The notes under the pieces: generated by a model
The model's input: only the letters and a program-made list of their open reading frames with translations
Told to the model about the DNA's origin: nothing
Databases searched by the model: none
Program-made: the position numbers and the translations under genes
Origin: Candidatus Hydrogenedentota bacterium
Lineage (GTDB): Bacteria; Hydrogenedentota; Hydrogenedentia; Hydrogenedentales; JAJRTN01
Direction of reading: 5' to 3'
Length of the DNA stretch: 54,897 bases
Assembly: GCA_024278275.1 (NCBI GenBank)
Contig: JAJRTN010000008.1
Span: forward strand, 1-54,897
Shown here: positions 7,947 to 17,400 of the stretch, one piece after another
How the letters are laid out: each line of letters opens with the position of its first letter
Position numbering within the stretch: position 1 is the first letter of the stretch

Positions 7947-8202
7947 AGGACGGACGGGAATAAGGGCCCCCTTTTTAACCGGGCGGGGGAAATCATTGAC
8001 AGCCCAACGGGGCTTATGTTACGGTTTTTGATGAATTAGGCCGTCCTGTGCCGCGTGGAACCGGGGAAGTGGGTTTCGCGGCGCCGGGGCTGAGGGCGTG
8101 TGCACAGGTACTCGTCTTGAAACCAGGACACGGGCTGACAACGGGAAGACACTTGAGCACGCAAACGGGTTGTGTCGTTCAGGTGAATGAATGAGGATCG
8201 CC

Positions 8203-9981
8203 ATGACACGCAAGTTCACCAAGATGGCCGTTTCGCTCTCGCTGGTAATATGCTTCGCCGGCGCCAATGCTTCGGCCTGGGAAACCCAGGCCCGCCAGAA
8301 AATCGTTATAATGGCGATGCAACTGCTCCGCCCGGCTCACCCCACCTTTTTCCGACCCCTCGAAGGGGATCTCACCTATGAAAAGGACGTGATCCAGGGG
8401 GCGACGGATGGACTTTCGGCGTTGAAGGATCGTATTTCCTTCACCAGCGCCCCGGAACTCATGGAGGCGATTGACGCCCAGATCGAAGTGCTTCGCGACG
8501 TGCGGCCCTATGGTCCCACATCGTACTACGCCTACCGCATGGGCGTACTCGCGGCGCTTTCAGCCGACCTGGTTCTTCCCTACGGCGTCGTTTTCTCGGA
8601 ATCCGGGAAGAAGCTGCAATCTGCCATTAACCGCGATATCGAGGCGAATCTCCCGGATTTAATCTACACCGGCGGGGAGCGGGAGCTCGTTTTCATCATG
8701 GACGCCGTGAAGTATTTCGGGGCACGGCGCCGTTTCTACACCAGTGACCAGGCCATGATTGCCAGCGATTATGCGTCGGGCAAGGGTTACAAAGGCTATC
8801 TCGCCGACAGCGTGGCCCAGTATTTCACCCGGGCCGCGGAGTCGGTGGCCGATGTGTGGCACACGGTGCTGCAACTCAGCCAGAACCGGGGCCGTGCCGC
8901 CACGCCGAGAAACGTCAAGGCCTGGTATTTCGTCGATGAGATAGATTACCTGCTCAACAACAAGAATAACCTGTTCCTCGCCGACAAGGTGTATCGCAAT
9001 TTTGAGCAGGTCAGCGAAGACCTGCCGGACCCTTATGAAAAGCTCGGCGATCTCTACTACCAGTACGGTGGCGAGGAAGGCGTGGCCCGGGGGGTTCGCG
9101 AGTGGCGTGTCGCGCACAGCGTGGCCGGTCCCAGCCGCAACCGTATTGCAAAGAAACTTTCGCACCACTTCATGGAAGTGGGTGATCGGCTCATTGATGC
9201 CTCGAAGGTGCCCGGGGCCGACGACATGACACTGCCCAACGCCCTCAATGCGTTCAAACAGGCCCTCGACTATGACCGCCGCAGTGTGCGTGCCGAGGAG
9301 CGCATTCAACTGGCCAACCAACTCATTCAGGAGCGGAAAGCCCGCTTCGAGGACAACATGGCCCTCTTGGCCAAGGCACAGGAGACCATGGAAGAGGGCA
9401 ACCAGTCCAGGCGCGGCGGCGGTTACACCAACGCCATCATCGCCTACCAGAAGGCCATCTCCATCTTTGACTCCGTGAGCGATGAGTTCACCAAGATTTA
9501 TTCCGCCGCCCAGGACGGCCTCGCGGAGGCCGATGATGCCATCGAAGGCGTGGTTACCGAGGTGCTTGGCAAGGCGGACGGCGCCATCGCTGATGGCGAG
9601 GCCGCCGTGGATGCGCATCGCTTCGAGCAGGCGGTCAACCTCTACCAGTCGGTGCCCGCCATCCTGGGTTCCATTCCGAAGGGCGCCACCAAGGATTCCG
9701 ACGCCGACAAGGAAGAACTGAACAAGTTGGCCAAGCAGAAAATCGAGGAGGCCAAGATCGCCAAAACCCAATGGGAGAAGCGGTTGGCCGAGCAGGAAGC
9801 GGCGAACCAGGCGGGCAACGCGCCCGCGGCCCCCACGGCGCCCGCGGCCCCCGGCGCGGGACAAATGCCTGGAATGCCAGGCATGCCCGGGATGCCGGGA
9901 ATGCCCGGAATGCCAGGCATGCCCGGAATGGGCCAGTTCCCGGGCATGGGACAAATGCCCCAAGCCCCGGCGCCCCGCTAG
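8203..9981 (+). CDS. Secreted helical/TPR-like protein of unknown function with Met-Pro-Gly tail
   Basis: About 592 residues. A signal peptide ends NASA, placing Trp (WETQAR) at the mature N-terminus. Residues ~20-130 weakly recall the all-helical zinc-dependent phospholipase C fold (YAYRMGVLAALSADLVLPYG), but the expected histidines are not apparent. Residues ~260-500 look like TPR-type or coiled helices (for example NALNAFKQALDYDRR and YTNAIIAYQKAISIFD). The C-terminus is Ala/Pro-rich and then about seven MPG repeats. An upstream ATG at 8191 is possible; I prefer 8203 because GAGGAT precedes it by about 6 nt and the signal peptide follows. It is a single-gene unit ending in a strong terminator. 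I do not recognise the family. Confidence 0.7.
   Translation: MTRKFTKMAVSLSLVICFAGANASAWETQARQKIVIMAMQLLRPAHPTFFRPLEGDLTYEKDVIQGATDGLSALKDRISFTSAPELMEAIDAQIEVLRDVRPYGPTSYYAYRMGVLAALSADLVLPYGVVFSESGKKLQSAINRDIEANLPDLIYTGGERELVFIMDAVKYFGARRRFYTSDQAMIASDYASGKGYKGYLADSVAQYFTRAAESVADVWHTVLQLSQNRGRAATPRNVKAWYFVDEIDYLLNNKNNLFLADKVYRNFEQVSEDLPDPYEKLGDLYYQYGGEEGVARGVREWRVAHSVAGPSRNRIAKKLSHHFMEVGDRLIDASKVPGADDMTLPNALNAFKQALDYDRRSVRAEERIQLANQLIQERKARFEDNMALLAKAQETMEEGNQSRRGGGYTNAIIAYQKAISIFDSVSDEFTKIYSAAQDGLAEADDAIEGVVTEVLGKADGAIADGEAAVDAHRFEQAVNLYQSVPAILGSIPKGATKDSDADKEELNKLAKQKIEEAKIAKTQWEKRLAEQEAANQAGNAPAAPTAPAAPGAGQMPGMPGMPGMPGMPGMPGMPGMGQFPGMGQMPQAPAPR
9864..9926 (+). repeat. Tandem 9-nt repeats encoding Met-Pro-Gly
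   Basis: Seven in-frame copies of ATGCCNGGN encode consecutive MPG triplets, followed by looser copies (MGQFPGMGQMPQ). Such a tail is probably unstructured and extracytoplasmic. Copy number could vary by slippage. Confidence 0.85.
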
Positions 9982-10095: not shown

Positions 10096-11601
10096 TTACA
10101 CCGTGGCGGTGACGCCCCCGGTGGCCAAGGCCATGATACGTTCCTGCGTGGCCTCGTCCCGCGTAAGCTCACCCGCGAGGCGTCCCTCGTGCATCACCAG
10201 GATGCGGTCGCACATGCCCAGCACTTCGGGCAACTCACTGGATATCATGAGGACGGCCACGCCCTCGCGCACCAGGTTATTCATCAGGCGGTAGATTTCG
10301 ACCTTGGCGCCCACGTCGATTCCCCGTGTGGGTTCGTCGAACAGGAGTACCTTGCAGTCCGTGAAGAGCCATTTTGCCAGGACCACCTTCTGCTGGTTGC
10401 CGCCGCTGAGATTGCGCACGGCCTGTTCGATGCCGGGCGTCTTGATGTTCAGGCTCTCGACGAACTCCCCGGCCACGGCGCGTTCGCGACGGCGGCGAAC
10501 AAAGGGGCCCATGGTCAATGCGTCGAGATTCGCCAGGGTGGCGTTTTCCCGCACGCTCATATCCAACACCAACCCCTGGTTTTTCCGGTCCTCGGTCAGC
10601 AGGCCAATGCCATGCCGAATGGCGGCCTCGGGACTCTTGCAGATCAGTGTCTCGCCGTTGAGATGGACAACGCCGCCATCCACCGGATCAGCGCCGAAAA
10701 TGGCCCGTGCCACCTCGGTACGTCCCGCGCCGACAAGCCCGGTGAGTCCCACAATTTCGCCCTCATGGAGGGAAAAGGAGATGTTCTCAAACACGCCCCT
10801 GCGCGTAAGCCCCTCCAGCCGCATCCGCTCCCGGCCCTTCCGGAAACGTTCCTTTGGAAACTCTTCCTCCAACCGTCGGCCCACCATCATGTGGATGAGC
10901 CGTTCCCGGTTCGCGTCGCGCACGTTCTCCGTGCCCACGTACCGTCCGTCGCGCATCACCGTCACCCGGTCGCCCACCTCGGCGATCTCTTCGAGGCGGT
11001 GGGAAATATAGATCAAGCCGATCCCCTGTTTCTTGAGCGAAGTGATAAGGGCGAAGAGTGCCCGCAATTCGTGGTTGGTGAGCGTTGCCGACGGTTCATC
11101 CATCACGATGATCTTCGCGTTGACGGAGAGGGCCTTGGCAATCTCGACCATCTGCTGTTCCGCCACGCTCAGCCCGCTCACGGGACGCCGGACATCCATC
11201 TCCACGCCAATACGGCCCAGTATGGCCCGTGCGTCCGCGTAAAGTTTTCGCCAATCAATGAAAGGGGTCGGGCCGCGCCGCGGCTCCCGGCCCAGGAAAA
11301 TGTTCTCCGCCACGTTGAGGTTCGGACTCAGGTTGAACTCCTGGTAGATCATGCTGATCCCCAGTTGCTGCGCATGATAGGGGGATTGAGGGCTGCGGGG
11401 AACGCCCTCCAGAAGCAACGTCCCCTCGTCCATGGGTTGCGCGCCGGAAAGAATCTTCATCAGGGTTGATTTGCCGGCGCCGTTTTCGCCCACCAGGCAA
11501 TGCACTTCCCCCGCGCGAAGGTTAAGCTGCCCGTGATCCACCGCCAGCACGCCGGGAAAGCGCTTCACGATGTCACGCATTTCAAGAATGTATTCACCCA
11601 T
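10096..11601 (-). CDS. Sugar ABC transporter ATPase, RbsA/MglA type (duplicated ABC domains)
   Basis: 501 residues, the usual length for fused double ATPases of ribose/galactose/xylose importers. The first half has Walker A GENGAGKSTLMK, signature LSVAEQQMVEIA and Walker B IIVMDEPSATLT. The second half has a degenerate P-loop GLVGAGRTEVA, signature LSGGNQQKVVLA and Walker B VLLFDEPTRGID. It would energise uptake of a monosaccharide with a BPD_transp_2-type permease and a periplasmic binding protein, but neither is adjacent. AGGAGAAC lies 4 nt before the ATG. Specificity within the RbsA group cannot be read from sequence alone. Confidence 0.92.
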   Translation of the reverse strand: MGEYILEMRDIVKRFPGVLAVDHGQLNLRAGEVHCLVGENGAGKSTLMKILSGAQPMDEGTLLLEGVPRSPQSPYHAQQLGISMIYQEFNLSPNLNVAENIFLGREPRRGPTPFIDWRKLYADARAILGRIGVEMDVRRPVSGLSVAEQQMVEIAKALSVNAKIIVMDEPSATLTNHELRALFALITSLKKQGIGLIYISHRLEEIAEVGDRVTVMRDGRYVGTENVRDANRERLIHMMVGRRLEEEFPKERFRKGRERMRLEGLTRRGVFENISFSLHEGEIVGLTGLVGAGRTEVARAIFGADPVDGGVVHLNGETLICKSPEAAIRHGIGLLTEDRKNQGLVLDMSVRENATLANLDALTMGPFVRRRRERAVAGEFVESLNIKTPGIEQAVRNLSGGNQQKVVLAKWLFTDCKVLLFDEPTRGIDVGAKVEIYRLMNNLVREGVAVLMISSELPEVLGMCDRILVMHEGRLAGELTRDEATQERIMALATGGVTATV

Positions 11602-11750: not shown

Positions 11751-11796
11751 TTGACAAAACGCATACGCTCGTATATTTTAATGTATACGAGCGTAT
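11751..11796 (+). promoter_or_regulatory. Promoter and palindromic operator of the blaI-like gene
   Basis: TTGACA (11751-11756), a 17-base spacer and TATTTT (11774-11779) form the promoter. A perfect 13-bp inverted repeat, ATACGCTCGTATA (11763-11775) and TATACGAGCGTAT (11784-11796), with an 8-base spacer covers the -10 and start point. Repressors of the BlaI/MecI family bind such dyads as dimers and block their own promoter, so autoregulation is expected. Confidence 0.8.
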
Positions 11797-11816: not shown

Positions 11817-12266
11817 ATGAGCGACCGGTCAAAGAAAAAAAAGGGCCACGCGGAACCGGAGTCCGTGCCCTCGGCGGAACTGGAGGTGCTGGCCTGCCTG
11901 TGGCAGCGAGGCCGGGCCACGGCGCGGTCCATTCGCGAGGCCATGACGCCCTACCGTCCCATGAGCCACGGGGCCATGTGTACCCTGCTCAGGCGGCTGG
12001 AGGAAAAGGGCCTGGTGTGCCGCACGGAAGAAAAGGTGGGCAAAGCCTTCGTATACCGCGCCGCGGGCACGCCGGAGAAAACCTTCGGCGAACTGTTGCG
12101 CGAAATGCGGCGGCGCATCTTCGGTGGGAGCGGGGTAACCCTGGTGGCGTCCCTCTTCGAGTCGGCCCCGCCGAACGCGGAAGAGCTGGAAGAACTCGAG
12201 CAGTTGCTGAGCAACCTACGCCGACAGCGTAGCAAAAGGGGCGAGAACGATGGAAGCGACGGTTAG
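11817..12266 (+). CDS. BlaI/MecI/CopY-family transcriptional repressor
   Basis: 149 residues with a winged-helix domain at residues ~18-95 (ELEVLACLWQRGRATARSI and MSHGAMCTLLRRLEEKGLV) and a dimerisation tail. Family members hold a promoter shut until a membrane M56 protease (BlaR1) causes their cleavage. The ATG at 11817 has AAAGGAAA 6 nt upstream; earlier in-frame starts lie inside the operator. The gene overlaps the following M56 gene by 17 nt, so the two are translationally coupled, as in bla/mec-type systems. Targets other than its own operon are unknown. Confidence 0.92.
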   Translation: MSDRSKKKKGHAEPESVPSAELEVLACLWQRGRATARSIREAMTPYRPMSHGAMCTLLRRLEEKGLVCRTEEKVGKAFVYRAAGTPEKTFGELLREMRRRIFGGSGVTLVASLFESAPPNAEELEELEQLLSNLRRQRSKRGENDGSDG

Positions 12267-15200
12267 TTATCTCAACACCGCCGCCGAATCCTGGTGGCCT
12301 CACGTGTTTCACGGCGCCTGGCAGGCGGCCCTGGTGGCCCTGACGGCCTTGGTGGTGGTCGGGTTGTTCCGCCGCCGTCTCCCGGCCACCCTGTGCTACG
12401 GGCTGCTTTTCCTGGCGGTGATGAAGTTCGTGGTCCCCCCCATGGCCGCATTGCCGACGGGTGCGTTCAGTTGGGGCCCCGCCGCCACATCGGAGACACC
12501 GGGCGAGGCCACGCTGCTCGCGCCGGTGACCGGAGGTTTCACGGGGGCGTATGAACCTGTTCCGGCGCCACCGGTGGCGCACCCGGTCCCGGCAAGACCG
12601 CGTGTTCCCGCACCCATGGCCGCGTCATCGGCATCCGCCACCATCACATCCGCATCGGCCGTGCCGGAACCCGCCGTGGCCAAGACGCCGCTGCGTCCCA
12701 CCTGGCTGGGGCTGCTGTTCGCCCTCCATCTCGCGGGGATGGCCGCCATGGCCCTGTGGATCGCGGGATCCACCCTGGGGCTTTACCGGCAAGTACGCCG
12801 CGTCCGGGCCGTCCGGAGCGGGGCGGCCCACGAGGCGTTGCAGACCCTCCGCGCGCAATTGGGCATCAAGCGGGAGATTCGCCTGCTCATCGGCGAGGAC
12901 GACCGACCACCCATCGCGTTCGGCCTGTTTCGTCCGGCCGTGTTGCTGCCCGCGGCCTTGGCCGATCAACTCGACACGCCGGAAGCGCGGGCCATCCTGG
13001 CGCACGAGCTGGCCCATCACCGCCGCCGCGATCCGTGGGCCATCGCGCTGGAGAACCTGGCGCTCCTGGTGTGGTGGTTTCATCCGGTGCTCTGGCGGCT
13101 CATTCACCGTTCGCGCCGAACGCGCGAAGAATGCTGCGACGACGTGGTGCTGAGCCTGGGCGTGAGCGACGGCGCCACCTATTGCGAAGGCCTGCTACGC
13201 ACGGCGGTGGCCGTCTCGGGACCGAAGCGCTTCGCCATGCCCCTGGGCCACGCGAACGCCCTGCACCCCCTCGGGCCGAGGATGAAGCGTATCATGGACA
13301 CCACCTTGCACCGCCGTCCGAAGCTCTCCCTGGCGGGCCTGCTGACCGTGGTGGTCCTGGGACTCGTGGTGTTGCCGGGGCTGCGCGTGGCCGATGCCCG
13401 CTCGGGTTCCGGGAGCGCGGCAACGGAAGCCCTTCCCGCCGCCCAACCGGCCAAGCCGCCAGTGTTTCGGCCCCTCGCCACGGCGGGCAAGGTCATCTTC
13501 AGCGGAGCGTACCAGCATTTCAGCCGGGGCGGCGCGTACCCTGATCCCGGCGACGTGGAGATCCGCGAGGACGAGGACGGCACCCTCACCGTTACCGGTT
13601 TGTTTCGTGACACGGGCTACCAGGCCAAGTCCGGGCCGGGGTTAAGCACCGGCGAATACGCGACCGGCCAGTTGTTTCTCGACGGCACGGCCAAGTACAG
13701 CATCCATCTGCAAATGGAGGACGGCACGGCCTTTCTCACCCGGCGCGGCATTCGAGAGGATGTCGATGACAAGCCACTCTCCGTGCCCAAAGGCGCCGTC
13801 TTTGATCCCAACACGCGGCCCGACCCTTATCTCGTCGCGCAGATCATGATGCGGCGGTTGAACCTGAAAGAGGGCGAGGAGAAAACGCTCCAGGTTTACG
13901 ATTGGGACAACGCGGGCGAAGGCATGGCGGTCTACGAGATCGCCTATCGCCACCAGGGCCGGGAAACCGTCACCGTCCCGGCGGGCACCTTCGCGGCGAA
14001 CCATATCGTGCTCGAACAACGCACTTCGGCGAACACGTGGTTCAAGAAACGGGCGGGCCACCTCACCGATTTCTGGGTGCTCGACAATGGCGTGATCGTG
14101 CGCATTCTGCGCCACCGCGAGCCCTACGAGCTGCGGTTGTCGCGTTGCAGCATTCCCACGCTGGAAACGGCTACGCCTCCCGTGTCGGAGGCCGTGCCGG
14201 ATACGCCCATCACCCCCGTGGACTTTCCCAAGGCATCGCCCACCTGCACGGTGGACTTCACCGCCGAGGAAGACCGCAAGGGCATGGTCAAATGGACCGA
14301 CATGCCCGTCATGGTGGAAGAAGGCGACATCCTCTACATTCAGGCCTCGGGGAGCATGGGCTTTTTCGCGGGTTCGCCGGACAACGTGATGGGCGGCCCG
14401 AACGGACAGGGTATGCACCCCCTCTACCAGAAGTACTTCCTCTTCTCCGACCGGGCGTTCATGGCCCTAGTGGGACTCATCGGGCTCGACCCCATCGTCT
14501 CCGACGACGAGCGCACCGGGATGTATGGACCGGGGTTTATCGGCGCGGGCATCAAGGCGACCAAACGTACGCCCGGCGCGGCCCGGCTCCGGTTGGGCGT
14601 GAATGATTCGACCGGCAGGAACCCCGGTTCCTACCAGGTCCGCATCTGGCTGGTGCGCAACGGGGCCGTGTTGTCACGAGACGAAGCGGCGGCGGCTCGG
14701 CCGCGCAAACCGGACCCCGATGCCCCGGCCCTCGAAATCCTGGAAGCCCGCTATGGCCGGGGCACGCGCTGGACGGATGCCACCGCAGCGCTGAAACGGC
14801 GGGCCGCCGACGGAAGGCTGGTCCTAAACGTGACGGACACATTGGGCCAAAATCCCTGGCCCAACGTAAACGACTCGCTCCATGTGCGTTACCGCGTGCA
14901 AGGCGTCGAGCAAACCATCATCGTCCAGGAAGGGGAGACCCTGCGGATTGGGGCGGGGGAGAAATCCGCGCCCACCGTGTACGTCGATGTGTCGAAGCCC
15001 TTGCACGCCCTGCCCTTCACGGAGGACTTCAACGACGGCAACTTCACCGCCAACCCTGCTTGGAAGGAATACAACCTGGGAAGCCACTTGGGCACCGTCG
15101 AGGTAGTGGACGGCACGCTGCGCATCGTTCGAAGAAGTGACGTCGTCCGACGGGTGAACGGGAGTGACGGCGGTACGGGCATCACCCTGGAAGCCGATCT

Positions 15201-16641
15201 GCCCGTTACCGATGCCACGGAAGTCGTATTCGATGGCAAGGTCGTCTTTCGCGACATCCCGGGCGGCTCGGGCCTGAGCGGCAGAAACCATCCCGTAAGC
15301 GTCCAGGTCATCGTGGATGACGTTGAAGGAAAAGAGGTCATCGTCCGCTACGGCCTGAACTATGGCAACGCCGTAAGGCGAGTGGACACGACAGCATACA
15401 AACAGGCCGGCCTCGCGGTTCTCCAAAACGAGTGGACCCGGAACGTGCGGTTCAGGATCCGCGCTCTCTGTCCGAAGGCCGTGAGGGTCACCAACCTGGG
15501 CATCCTCGCCTATGGCTGGGACTACGAAGGTTATGTGGATAATCTGCGCATCATCGACACGCCCGCTTCCCTGGAGATCCTCGCTGCCCGCTACGGCGCG
15601 GGAGGCAAGTGGGTCGATGTGACGAAAGAGTTGCGGCAATGCGTGAGGAATGGTGCATTGACCGTGAGCGTATCCAACGATCTCGCGGGGGATCCCGTCG
15701 CCAACGTGGAAAAACAACTGGAGGTACGCTACCGCTTCGCTGGAGAAACGGGAGAAATCAGCGCCAGAGAAGGCGAGATGCTTCGGATTCCGGCGGATGC
15801 CGGGAAGAGCGCGGCGCCGCAAGCGGCGCCCGCGAAAGCGGCGGAATACCACCCCCTGCCCACAGCGGGCAAGGTGATCTTCAACGGCCAGTACAAACAC
15901 TTCAGCCGGGGGCGCGCGTATCCCGATCCCGGCGACATAGAGGTCCGCGAGAGCGAGGACGGCACGCTCACCGTGTCGGGCTCGTTTCGTGGCGGGGGCA
16001 ATCAGGCCAAGTCCGGACCCGGACTAAGCATCGGCGAATACGTGAGCGGCCAGCTTCTGCGGGACGGCACGACCAAGTATGAAATGCGCTTGCGAATGCG
16101 GGATGGCAAGGTTCTTCTCACCCGCCGTGGCGTGCGGGAAGATGTTGACGATAAGGCGCTTCCCGTGCCCGAGGGCGCGGTCTTCGATCCCAACTCCCGG
16201 CCCGACCCCTATCTCGTTGCGCAGATCATGATGCGGCGGTTGAACCTGAAAGAGGGCGAGGAGAAAACGCTCCAGGTTTACGATTGGGACAACACGGGCG
16301 AAGGCATGGCGGCCTACAAAATCGTCTATCGCCACATGGGCAAGGAAACAGTGACCGTCCCGGCGGGCACTTTCGAGGCTAACCACATCGTGCTCGAACA
16401 GCGTACCTCGGCGAACACGTGGTTCAAGAAACGCGCCGGGCACCTGACCGATTTCTGGGCGCTCGACAACAGCGTGATCGTCCGCATCCTGCGCCACCGC
16501 GAGCCCTACGAGCTGCGGTTGTTGCGTTGCAGCATTCCCACGCTGGAAACGGTTGAACCTCCCGTGTCGGAGGCCGTGCCGGATACGCCCGTCACCGCAT
16601 GGCGGGTGGCCCAAGATTGCTCGCGAGTACGTTCGCGATGA
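12250..16641 (+). CDS. BlaR1-like M56 membrane protease with giant duplicated multi-domain sensor
   Basis: 1463 residues. The N-terminal ~380 residues are an M56 peptidase: membrane helices, zinc site HELAH (H252-H256) followed by EECCDD, and a last helix near 357-376. Instead of the penicillin-binding sensor of BlaR1, the outer part carries (approximate residues): a DUF3108-like domain (405-654), a PA-IL/LecA-like lectin domain with GLIG and LGVNDST (657-805), a DUF3395-like domain (826-903), a concanavalin-like domain starting EDFNDGNF (917-1103), a second DUF3395-like domain (1107-1183) and a second, nearly identical DUF3108-like domain (1199-1448). It probably senses an extracellular ligand, perhaps a glycan, and signals to the BlaI partner. 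The last 14 residues differ from the equivalent point of copy 1 and read into repeat DNA, so the 3' end may be truncated. Confidence 0.85.
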   Translation: MEATVSYLNTAAESWWPHVFHGAWQAALVALTALVVVGLFRRRLPATLCYGLLFLAVMKFVVPPMAALPTGAFSWGPAATSETPGEATLLAPVTGGFTGAYEPVPAPPVAHPVPARPRVPAPMAASSASATITSASAVPEPAVAKTPLRPTWLGLLFALHLAGMAAMALWIAGSTLGLYRQVRRVRAVRSGAAHEALQTLRAQLGIKREIRLLIGEDDRPPIAFGLFRPAVLLPAALADQLDTPEARAILAHELAHHRRRDPWAIALENLALLVWWFHPVLWRLIHRSRRTREECCDDVVLSLGVSDGATYCEGLLRTAVAVSGPKRFAMPLGHANALHPLGPRMKRIMDTTLHRRPKLSLAGLLTVVVLGLVVLPGLRVADARSGSGSAATEALPAAQPAKPPVFRPLATAGKVIFSGAYQHFSRGGAYPDPGDVEIREDEDGTLTVTGLFRDTGYQAKSGPGLSTGEYATGQLFLDGTAKYSIHLQMEDGTAFLTRRGIREDVDDKPLSVPKGAVFDPNTRPDPYLVAQIMMRRLNLKEGEEKTLQVYDWDNAGEGMAVYEIAYRHQGRETVTVPAGTFAANHIVLEQRTSANTWFKKRAGHLTDFWVLDNGVIVRILRHREPYELRLSRCSIPTLETATPPVSEAVPDTPITPVDFPKASPTCTVDFTAEEDRKGMVKWTDMPVMVEEGDILYIQASGSMGFFAGSPDNVMGGPNGQGMHPLYQKYFLFSDRAFMALVGLIGLDPIVSDDERTGMYGPGFIGAGIKATKRTPGAARLRLGVNDSTGRNPGSYQVRIWLVRNGAVLSRDEAAAARPRKPDPDAPALEILEARYGRGTRWTDATAALKRRAADGRLVLNVTDTLGQNPWPNVNDSLHVRYRVQGVEQTIIVQEGETLRIGAGEKSAPTVYVDVSKPLHALPFTEDFNDGNFTANPAWKEYNLGSHLGTVEVVDGTLRIVRRSDVVRRVNGSDGGTGITLEADLPVTDATEVVFDGKVVFRDIPGGSGLSGRNHPVSVQVIVDDVEGKEVIVRYGLNYGNAVRRVDTTAYKQAGLAVLQNEWTRNVRFRIRALCPKAVRVTNLGILAYGWDYEGYVDNLRIIDTPASLEILAARYGAGGKWVDVTKELRQCVRNGALTVSVSNDLAGDPVANVEKQLEVRYRFAGETGEISAREGEMLRIPADAGKSAAPQAAPAKAAEYHPLPTAGKVIFNGQYKHFSRGRAYPDPGDIEVRESEDGTLTVSGSFRGGGNQAKSGPGLSIGEYVSGQLLRDGTTKYEMRLRMRDGKVLLTRRGVREDVDDKALPVPEGAVFDPNSRPDPYLVAQIMMRRLNLKEGEEKTLQVYDWDNTGEGMAAYKIVYRHMGKETVTVPAGTFEANHIVLEQRTSANTWFKKRAGHLTDFWALDNSVIVRILRHREPYELRLLRCSIPTLETVEPPVSEAVPDTPVTAWRVAQDCSRVRSR
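13465..14215 (+). repeat. Internal duplication, copy 1 (DUF3108-like domain)
   Basis: This ~750-nt segment of the M56 gene recurs at 15847-16597 in the same frame, offset by exactly 2382 nt. Long runs are identical or almost so, for example 13834-13911 against 16216-16293. That is too similar for an ancient protein repeat and points to recent duplication or gene conversion. Confidence 0.85.
15847..16597 (+). repeat. Internal duplication, copy 2 (DUF3108-like domain)
   Basis: Second copy of the segment at 13465-14215. Similarity stops abruptly after 16597, where copy 1 continues into the lectin-like domain and copy 2 enters non-coding repeat sequence. Confidence 0.85.
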
Positions 16642-17400
16642 CAGCGTGGTACGGATTCGAGATGACACGAGGCGGCATGTCCCCCTTTTTGTCATCTCGA
16701 ATGTAATCATGAGAGATCCGATCCCGTGAGCGGTGCGCCCTGGGCATCGAACAGAGGCCGATGCGGGCGGGACGCCCGCGACAGGCGTTCCCACGGAGGA
16801 CCGTGGGAACGAGATAACTTGGTAGTGACGCTTCTCCGACCACCGTCATTCCCGCGAAAGCGGGAATCCATGAAAAAGGTCGATGTCTTGTCGTTGGCCC
16901 GTGGATCCCCGCGTGCGCGGGATGACGATCTTGGCGGTGTTGGGAGTAACGCGGTTGGCAGGCGGCGCTTCGGGTTATACAACGATGCGGGCGAGACGCC
17001 CGCGACATGCATTCCCACGGAGGACCGTGGGAACGAGGATATAGCTTGGTCACGAAGGGCAATACTCCAGAAAACCGGAAGGAGGACCGGAACCGGGTTC
17101 AGACTGCCTTGCTGCTGTTGCTCTGCCGGGATCCTCGCGAAGGCGCGAAGACCCACCTGAGCGTGCTCACTGCTGGGGACTGGCGGAACCTTGCACGCAA
17201 GTCACGCGCGCTGGGGGTAGAACACCAGGCAGCCCATCCTGGCGAGGTCATGTAACTGATGCCCATGTGTACGCGGGACCAGACCACGAGCAACGATGAC
17301 GGTGAATTCTGTTTCTCTCCCCTCGTCGCGGGCGACATGAAGTGGATTACATGGGTCTCTCTCTGCCTGTCACGATCTCCGCGGGGAAGAGCCGGGGCGG
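16621..17400. repeat. REP/BIME-like cluster of hairpin repeats
   Basis: A gene-free stretch dense in inverted repeats. TCGCGA pair at 16621/16633; ATTCGAGATGAC (16655-16666) with its complement (16691-16702); two copies of a double hairpin at 16763-16811 and 16987-17034, each a GCGGGCG/CGCCCGC stem followed by a TTCCCACGG-AGGA-CCGTGGGAA stem; and between them TTCCCGC-GAAA-GCGGGAA (16849-16866) with an inverted relative at 16908-16921. Such units are typical non-autonomous extragenic palindromes. They begin within the last codons of the M56 gene. Confidence 0.8.

Follow-up and report, generated by a model that had tools for sequence, protein, structure and literature searches.

A BlaI-linked M56 receptor-protease with a large DUF3108- and DUF3395-containing ectodomain in a Candidatus Hydrogenedentota bacterium

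Introduction

The BlaI–BlaR1 system is taught as a beta-lactam switch. The locus described here raises the question of what such a switch may respond to when its protease and repressor are retained and the outside part of the receptor is a very large region of a different kind. The window, a stretch of 54,897 nucleotides of contig JAJRTN010000008.1 (assembly GCA_024278275.1, positions 1–54,897 of the forward strand), comes from the 5.35-Mb genome of a Candidatus Hydrogenedentota bacterium and contains a blaI-type gene directly followed by a gene for an M56 protein of 1463 residues (Table 1). The initial annotation had proposed a standard M56 zinc site and BlaI partner, with the penicillin-binding sensor replaced by two DUF3108-like domains, a PA-IL/LecA-like lectin domain, two DUF3395-like domains and a concanavalin-like domain, and had suggested that the system is tuned to a polysaccharide or envelope glycan. 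In this study, the pair, its promoter, its ectodomain and its relatives across the phylum were analysed computationally.

Table 1 Features of the blaI–M56 locus (positions in the window)
Feature	Position	Strand	Basis or remark
blaI promoter, sigma-70-like: TTGACA 11751–11756, 17-bp spacer, TATTTT 11774–11779	11751–11779	+	Consensus match, predicted
Operator-like dyad O1, ATACGCTCGTAT	11763–11774	.	Between −35 and −10; exact ATACGNNCGTAT
Operator-like dyad O2, ATACGAGCGTAT	11785–11796	.	Just downstream of −10; exact ATACGNNCGTAT
blaI-type repressor, 149 aa	11817–12266	+	Penicillinase_R PF03965, E 5.6e-18; directly upstream of the M56 gene
M56 receptor-protease, 1463 aa	12250–16641	+	Start overlaps blaI end by 17 bp
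Span with four transmembrane segments, residues 22–40, 44–62, 153–171 and 359–377	12313–13380	+	Hydropathy scan
Peptidase_M56 domain, residues 120–341	12607–13272	+	PF05569, E 4.8e-33
DUF3108 copy 1, YmcC/LolA/MucB-like fold	13456–14178	+	PF11306, E 8.9e-7; model pLDDT 86.8; Foldseek
Divergent PA-IL/LecA-like segment, residues 658–813	14221–14688	+	Pairwise shuffles; weakly supported
DUF3395 copy 1, SUEL-lectin-like, core motif degenerate or lost	14716–14964	+	Pfam, alignment, profile against PDB
Segment without family (concanavalin-like domain of the initial annotation)	14968–15573	+	End overlaps start of DUF3395 copy 2
DUF3395 copy 2, SUEL-lectin-like, core N..GDP....K.L.V.Y kept	15562–15810	+	PF11875, E 1.3e-8
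DUF3108 copy 2, 80% identical to copy 1	15838–16560	+	Lineage-specific duplication under constraint
C-terminal tail, derived from an intergenic repeat	16595–16641	+	16595–16653 85% identical to intergenic G000:C185:14696

Results and discussion

Gene pair and protease core

The M56 gene is a single frame that is open throughout, and its product is the only M56 protein in the genome. The zinc site and the BlaI partner are indeed standard: both domains were matched with strong E values (Table 1), and the motif scan placed HEXXH at residues 252–256 and EXXXD at residues 293–297. The same two zinc motifs are found in the solved structure of S. aureus BlaR1; in that receptor, a ligand bound outside the cell causes the helices to move, and BlaI is cut directly by the protease on the cytoplasmic side (PMC9834060). 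All four hydrophobic segments lie before residue 380, and the C-terminal part would be located outside the cell, with the sidedness taken from BlaR1. BlaR1 structures were matched over the protease region by phmmer, whereas the NCBIfam blaR1_generic model, which has a cut-off of 400 bits, aligned with residues 155–381 and scored 76 bits; with a score this far below the cut-off over these residues, the resemblance of the protein to BlaR1 is confined to the protease. The upstream BlaI matched the NCBIfam CopY/BlaI/MecI models, all below their cut-offs. Its most likely start is the ATG at 11817, and a TTG at 11751, within the promoter, is an unlikely start.

The pair thus shares with the BlaR1/MecR1–BlaI/MecI systems of Staphylococcus and Bacillus licheniformis an M56 gluzincin protease with both zinc motifs, four membrane helices, a C-terminal extracytoplasmic region, an adjacent BlaI repressor and operator-like promoter dyads. 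It differs from them in that the Pfam and NCBIfam scans detected no penicillin-binding (class D beta-lactamase-like) sensor, in that no beta-lactamase, PBP or mecA gene was found among the ten flanking genes scanned, and in that the ectodomain is approximately four times larger and consists of different domains. A BlaI–M56 pair with a non-penicillin ectodomain, as initially proposed, is therefore present, and, judged by its domain content, its ligand is not a beta-lactam. An ordinary BlaR1-kind sensor of beta-lactams or cell-wall damage, in which the penicillin domain has been lost and the signal is read otherwise or peptidoglycan fragments act on BlaI, would agree with the BlaR1-generic similarity over the protease; the M. 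tuberculosis BlaR homologue has no sensor domain and another way of reading the signal has been proposed for it (PMC9834060), and BlaI is able to respond to a peptidoglycan dipeptide (PMC3305447). However, neither a transpeptidase nor a class D beta-lactamase-like domain was matched, the ten flanking genes scanned include no beta-lactamase or PBP gene, and a very large ectodomain is present instead; we regard this reading as improbable.

Two DUF3108 copies with a lipid-carrier-like fold

The ectodomain of approximately 1080 residues comprises two DUF3108 domains, two DUF3395/SUEL-like domains and about 350 residues of less certain nature. Both DUF3108 domains named in the initial annotation were recovered by Pfam, in the whole protein (PF11306, E 2.2e-14; 54.2 bits against a curated cut-off of 26) as well as in each copy scored singly (E 9e-7 and 8e-8; 29.4 and 32.7 bits). 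A structure model built from an 11-row alignment (pLDDT 86.8, pTM 0.82) gave as its best Foldseek matches YmcC-like exported lipoproteins, PA1994 and YmcC itself (E 6e-6 to 6e-4), followed by several LolA and MucB entries (probability up to 0.97, E 0.008–0.1), with TM-scores that were low throughout (0.3–0.46 by query). No sequence similarity to MucB/RseB, LolA/LolB or YmcC(GfcB)/PA1994 was detectable, and the likeness is one of fold class. Most known ligands of this class are lipids or acylated molecules, and the modelled fold suggests a lipidic or lipoprotein ligand for DUF3108 as well. One member of the class, MucB/RseB, acts in the periplasm, where it gates an envelope-stress pathway that works by proteolysis; a comparable sensor role for DUF3108 would be an attractive parallel, drawn by analogy only, with the difference that DUF3108 and the protease are parts of one polypeptide in the present case.

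The two copies are sisters in the tree (support 100/99), with a dN of 0.12, a dS of 0.49 and a dN/dS of approximately 0.24, which corresponds to purifying selection. Together with their identity, these values indicate that the duplication is lineage-specific and that both copies are constrained. Approximately 70 bp are nearly identical between the copies (13840–13911 and 16222–16293), and the synonymous divergence drops from about 0.6–0.8 to 0.2 along the domain; the pattern suggests gene conversion between them.

Two DUF3395 copies resembling SUEL lectins

Pfam likewise detected the two predicted copies of DUF3395 (PF11875, currently named DnaJ-like_C11_C; E 2.1e-10). A profile from a 24-row alignment, with rows from the window, L037, L045 and L121–L140, matched the L-rhamnose-binding lectins of the PDB (5h4s, E 6.8e-18; CSL3, 5.8e-11; CSL2, 2.5e-7) and the latrophilin lectin domains (E 0.02–0.04). 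The match is carried by an N.FGDP....K.L.V.Y core together with A.YG, motifs that are shared with CSL3 and the latrophilin lectin domain, and is mostly that of a 28-residue core; single sequences match weakly, with copy 2 alone reaching E 0.12 against the SUEL_Lectin family. Unlike the SUEL lectins, the DUF3395 alignment contains no framework of disulphide cysteines, its best Pfam family is DnaJ-like_C11_C and its sugar binding is putative. On these profile matches, DUF3395/DnaJ-like_C11_C looks related to the SUEL rhamnose/galactose-binding lectins. At G000:C196 in the host genome, and in eight further genomes of the phylum, DUF3395 has HEAT repeats on one side and a 3-keto-disaccharide hydrolase domain on the other, a setting that fits a sugar-related role. 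Proteins of this kind, of about 900 residues, form a family found in many genomes of the phylum (G000:C196:40635–40880, L045:5544–8183; L121–L140). In the open-access literature searched, the papers that name DUF3395 are eukaryotic J-protein or mitochondrial studies.

PA-IL-like segment, unassigned segment and gene end

The remaining segments gave less uniform results. On its own, the PA-IL-like segment matched nothing in Pfam or the PDB, and an HMM built from the PA-IL domains of two relatives misses it. In pairwise comparison with the relatives' PA-IL domains it scored Z 4.0–6.5 (0–3 of 1000 shuffles) against approximately −1 to 1.2 for unrelated controls, and when its row was added to the relatives' profile the matches to PA-IL structures improved and LecA was brought in. 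The ND and N.GS motifs are kept, and the loop at the position that holds the calcium/sugar site in LecA has three residues fewer than in G048 and G052. The PA-IL/LecA-like domain of the initial annotation is retained in part on this sequence evidence, as a probable but unproven assignment of residues 658–813.

The concanavalin-like (LamG) reading was not borne out. Residues ~907–1108 gave no Pfam match and no confident model, their comparison with LamG or 3-keto-disaccharide hydrolase domains of the phylum (Z approximately −1 to 1.3) gave no match, and no relative was detectable in Pfam, the 68 genomes of the phylum sample or plasmids. Neither this segment nor the PA-IL-like one has a close match among the 68 genomes. 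In a model of the central 561 residues (mean pLDDT 44), only the DUF3395 copies were moderately confident, and a Foldseek search with it returned nothing.

The last ~16 residues of the protein fall within an intergenic repeat, with DUF3108 copy 2 complete before this tail. Downstream of the gene there are REP-like sequences, and a 55-bp intergenic repeat with internal dyads occurs at 16759–16813 and 16983–17037 (95% identical).

The composition raises the possibility of a decaying or recently rearranged gene, in which a simpler M56–DUF3108 receptor was enlarged by duplication and insertion, ends in a repeat and carries an added part without function. The nearest relative, an M56 protein of 616 residues in genome G024, has one DUF3108 and could represent the simpler form; the sister relationship of the two copies, the repeat-derived tail and the degenerate state of DUF3395 copy 1 and of the PA-IL-like loop point the same way. 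However, the frame of 1463 codons is fully open and the dN/dS between the DUF3108 copies indicates that selection has maintained the two since the duplication arose, and we regard this explanation as improbable.

Promoter, candidate operators and neighbouring genes

Two perfect dyads of the form ATACG-NN-CGTAT, O1 and O2, flank the −10 box of the blaI promoter. They are TAC-type dyads placed on the promoter, as in BlaI-regulated units, and both are exact copies of ATACGNNCGTAT, which makes them candidate operators. Only four exact ATACGNNCGTAT sites occur in the genome, two at this promoter and two inside long ORFs; the relaxed dyad ATACNNNNGTAT occurs at 14 sites, against nine for the reversed control, and as a pair at the blaI promoter only. 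A regulon could not be drawn from this search, with a relaxed count near that of the control and a single paired promoter. Neither the exact nor the relaxed search found an operator copy at a promoter elsewhere in the genome, and no regulated target was found beyond the blaI–M56 pair. Since no promoter other than that of blaI was found to carry perfect dyads, the unit has the appearance of a private autoregulated circuit, and we infer an autoregulated pair with its own putative operator. Close relatives have similar dyads in their blaI promoter region, whereas more distant M56 pairs have different ones, for example ATTTACAAATGTAAAT.

Among relatives, blaI and the M56 gene are the only part of the neighbourhood that is conserved, no other neighbour being kept. 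For this reason, the divergent gene at 10096–11601 on the minus strand, which encodes an RbsA/XylG-type sugar ABC ATPase, is not taken as evidence of a sugar signal. This ATPase gene stands alone, with the next gene convergent and no adjoining permease or binding-protein gene seen. A further gene at 8191–9981 encodes a protein of 596 residues with a weak TPR match and a Pro-Gly-Met repeat tail (PGMPGMPGMPGM...).

M56 proteins across the phylum

The phylum sample comprised 68 genomes, in which the order of the host covers the whole phylum. M56 proteins were found in 38 of them, with 127 matches in total, up to 11 per genome, and open frames ranging from about 290 to 2,696 codons. None of the 29 M56 proteins scanned, including the present one, contains a penicillin-binding domain. 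Their ectodomains are mixed, with PA-IL, LamG, HEAT, LRR, ankyrin, secretin and thioredoxin parts as well as carboxypeptidase-regulatory, Sel1, SecDF-head, Big and subtilase parts. Very large examples combine ankyrin repeats with a subtilase domain (L142, G061), MlaD with a SecDF head and LRR (L044, G057), or HEAT repeats with a SecDF head (L150, G004).

DUF3108 of the present type was found in eight other genomes, weakly in G011, and was joined to M56 in all six complete frames examined. M56 proteins with two DUF3108 domains are also encoded in G044 and G050 (962 aa), which speaks against the suspicion that this kind of protein is an assembly artefact. PA-IL, LamG and HEAT parts occur on the M56 proteins of G048 (959 aa) and G052 (1494 aa), the latter with DUF3108 and DUF3395 in addition. 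The combination of M56 with a lectin domain recurs in relatives, but the exact order of the present protein does not: DUF3108, PA-IL-like, DUF3395, unassigned segment, DUF3395 and DUF3108 in succession were found in no other M56 protein examined. As in the present locus, blaI and the M56 gene overlap or are adjacent in these relatives (G024, G044/G050, G048 and G052), and blaI–M56 pairs are also present at two Verrucomicrobiota loci with 35–37% identity. The open-access literature searched contained no account of M56 proteins carrying ectodomains of this kind. The layout illustrates how a known kind of system varies across the phylum and is not an isolated new system. With the ectodomain behaving as an exchangeable module, different pairs probably sense different things.

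Proposed mechanism

The reading that best accounts for these results, to which we assign a probability of roughly 0.55, is that the two genes together constitute a self-regulating receptor-protease unit of the BlaI–BlaR1 kind that senses an envelope ligand other than a beta-lactam. BlaI dimers on O1 and O2 would repress the pair; the ectodomain would bind an envelope or extracellular ligand with the pockets of DUF3108, with the lectin-like DUF3395 domains or with both kinds of domain; binding would move the membrane helices, by analogy with S. aureus BlaR1, and the cytoplasmic protease would then cut BlaI, which would derepress the unit and give positive feedback. With DUF3108 lipid-carrier-like and DUF3395 lectin-like, a glycolipid, a lipopolysaccharide-like molecule or a polysaccharide is the most natural guess for the ligand.

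The proposal of a glycan sensor is a possible one, on different ground from that on which it was first put forward. The unexpected match of DUF3395 to the SUEL lectins is the strongest evidence of a lectin, whereas the concanavalin-like domain has fallen away, the loop of the PA-IL-like segment is short and DUF3108, the module that is both most conserved and duplicated, models as a fold of the lipid-ligand class, which speaks against a purely glycan reading. A more specific version, in which a glycolipid or polysaccharide is detected by two SUEL-like and one LecA-like lectin modules together with the pair of RseB/LolA-like modules and its detection leads to the cleavage of BlaI, the unit being one of many private BlaI–M56 circuits of the phylum with outside parts exchanged for many ligands, is put forward tentatively.

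The ectodomain might instead be mainly payload: an envelope protein, such as an adhesin or a lipid or lipoprotein handler, on an M56 anchor, with its amount set by the autoregulation of BlaI and the protease. This has to be taken seriously as a rival, since the operator searches of the genome located no further copy at a promoter and no conserved target gene was found beside the pair, and it gains from the enzyme- or transport-like parts among the ectodomains of the phylum (thioredoxin, secretin, subtilase and SecDF head) and from the shedding of the sensor domain of S. aureus BlaR1 by signal peptidase (PMC9834060). The protease and BlaI are, however, conserved intact, which fits signalling, and many ectodomains of the phylum are non-enzymatic binding modules; we consider the payload explanation less probable than that of a sensor.

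Conclusions

In conclusion, this study describes a BlaI–M56 pair that would constitute a self-regulating receptor-protease unit sensing an envelope ligand. In the phylum as a whole, one protease–repressor core is found on many unrelated outside modules, with dyads on its own promoters, in a manner comparable to the exchange of sensor domains by histidine kinases. The links of DUF3395 to SUEL lectins and of DUF3108 to MucB and LolA offer concrete ligand classes to try and, if the proposed reading is true, M56 proteins would make up a general class of receptors, each a single membrane-spanning protein, with ligands that can be tested.
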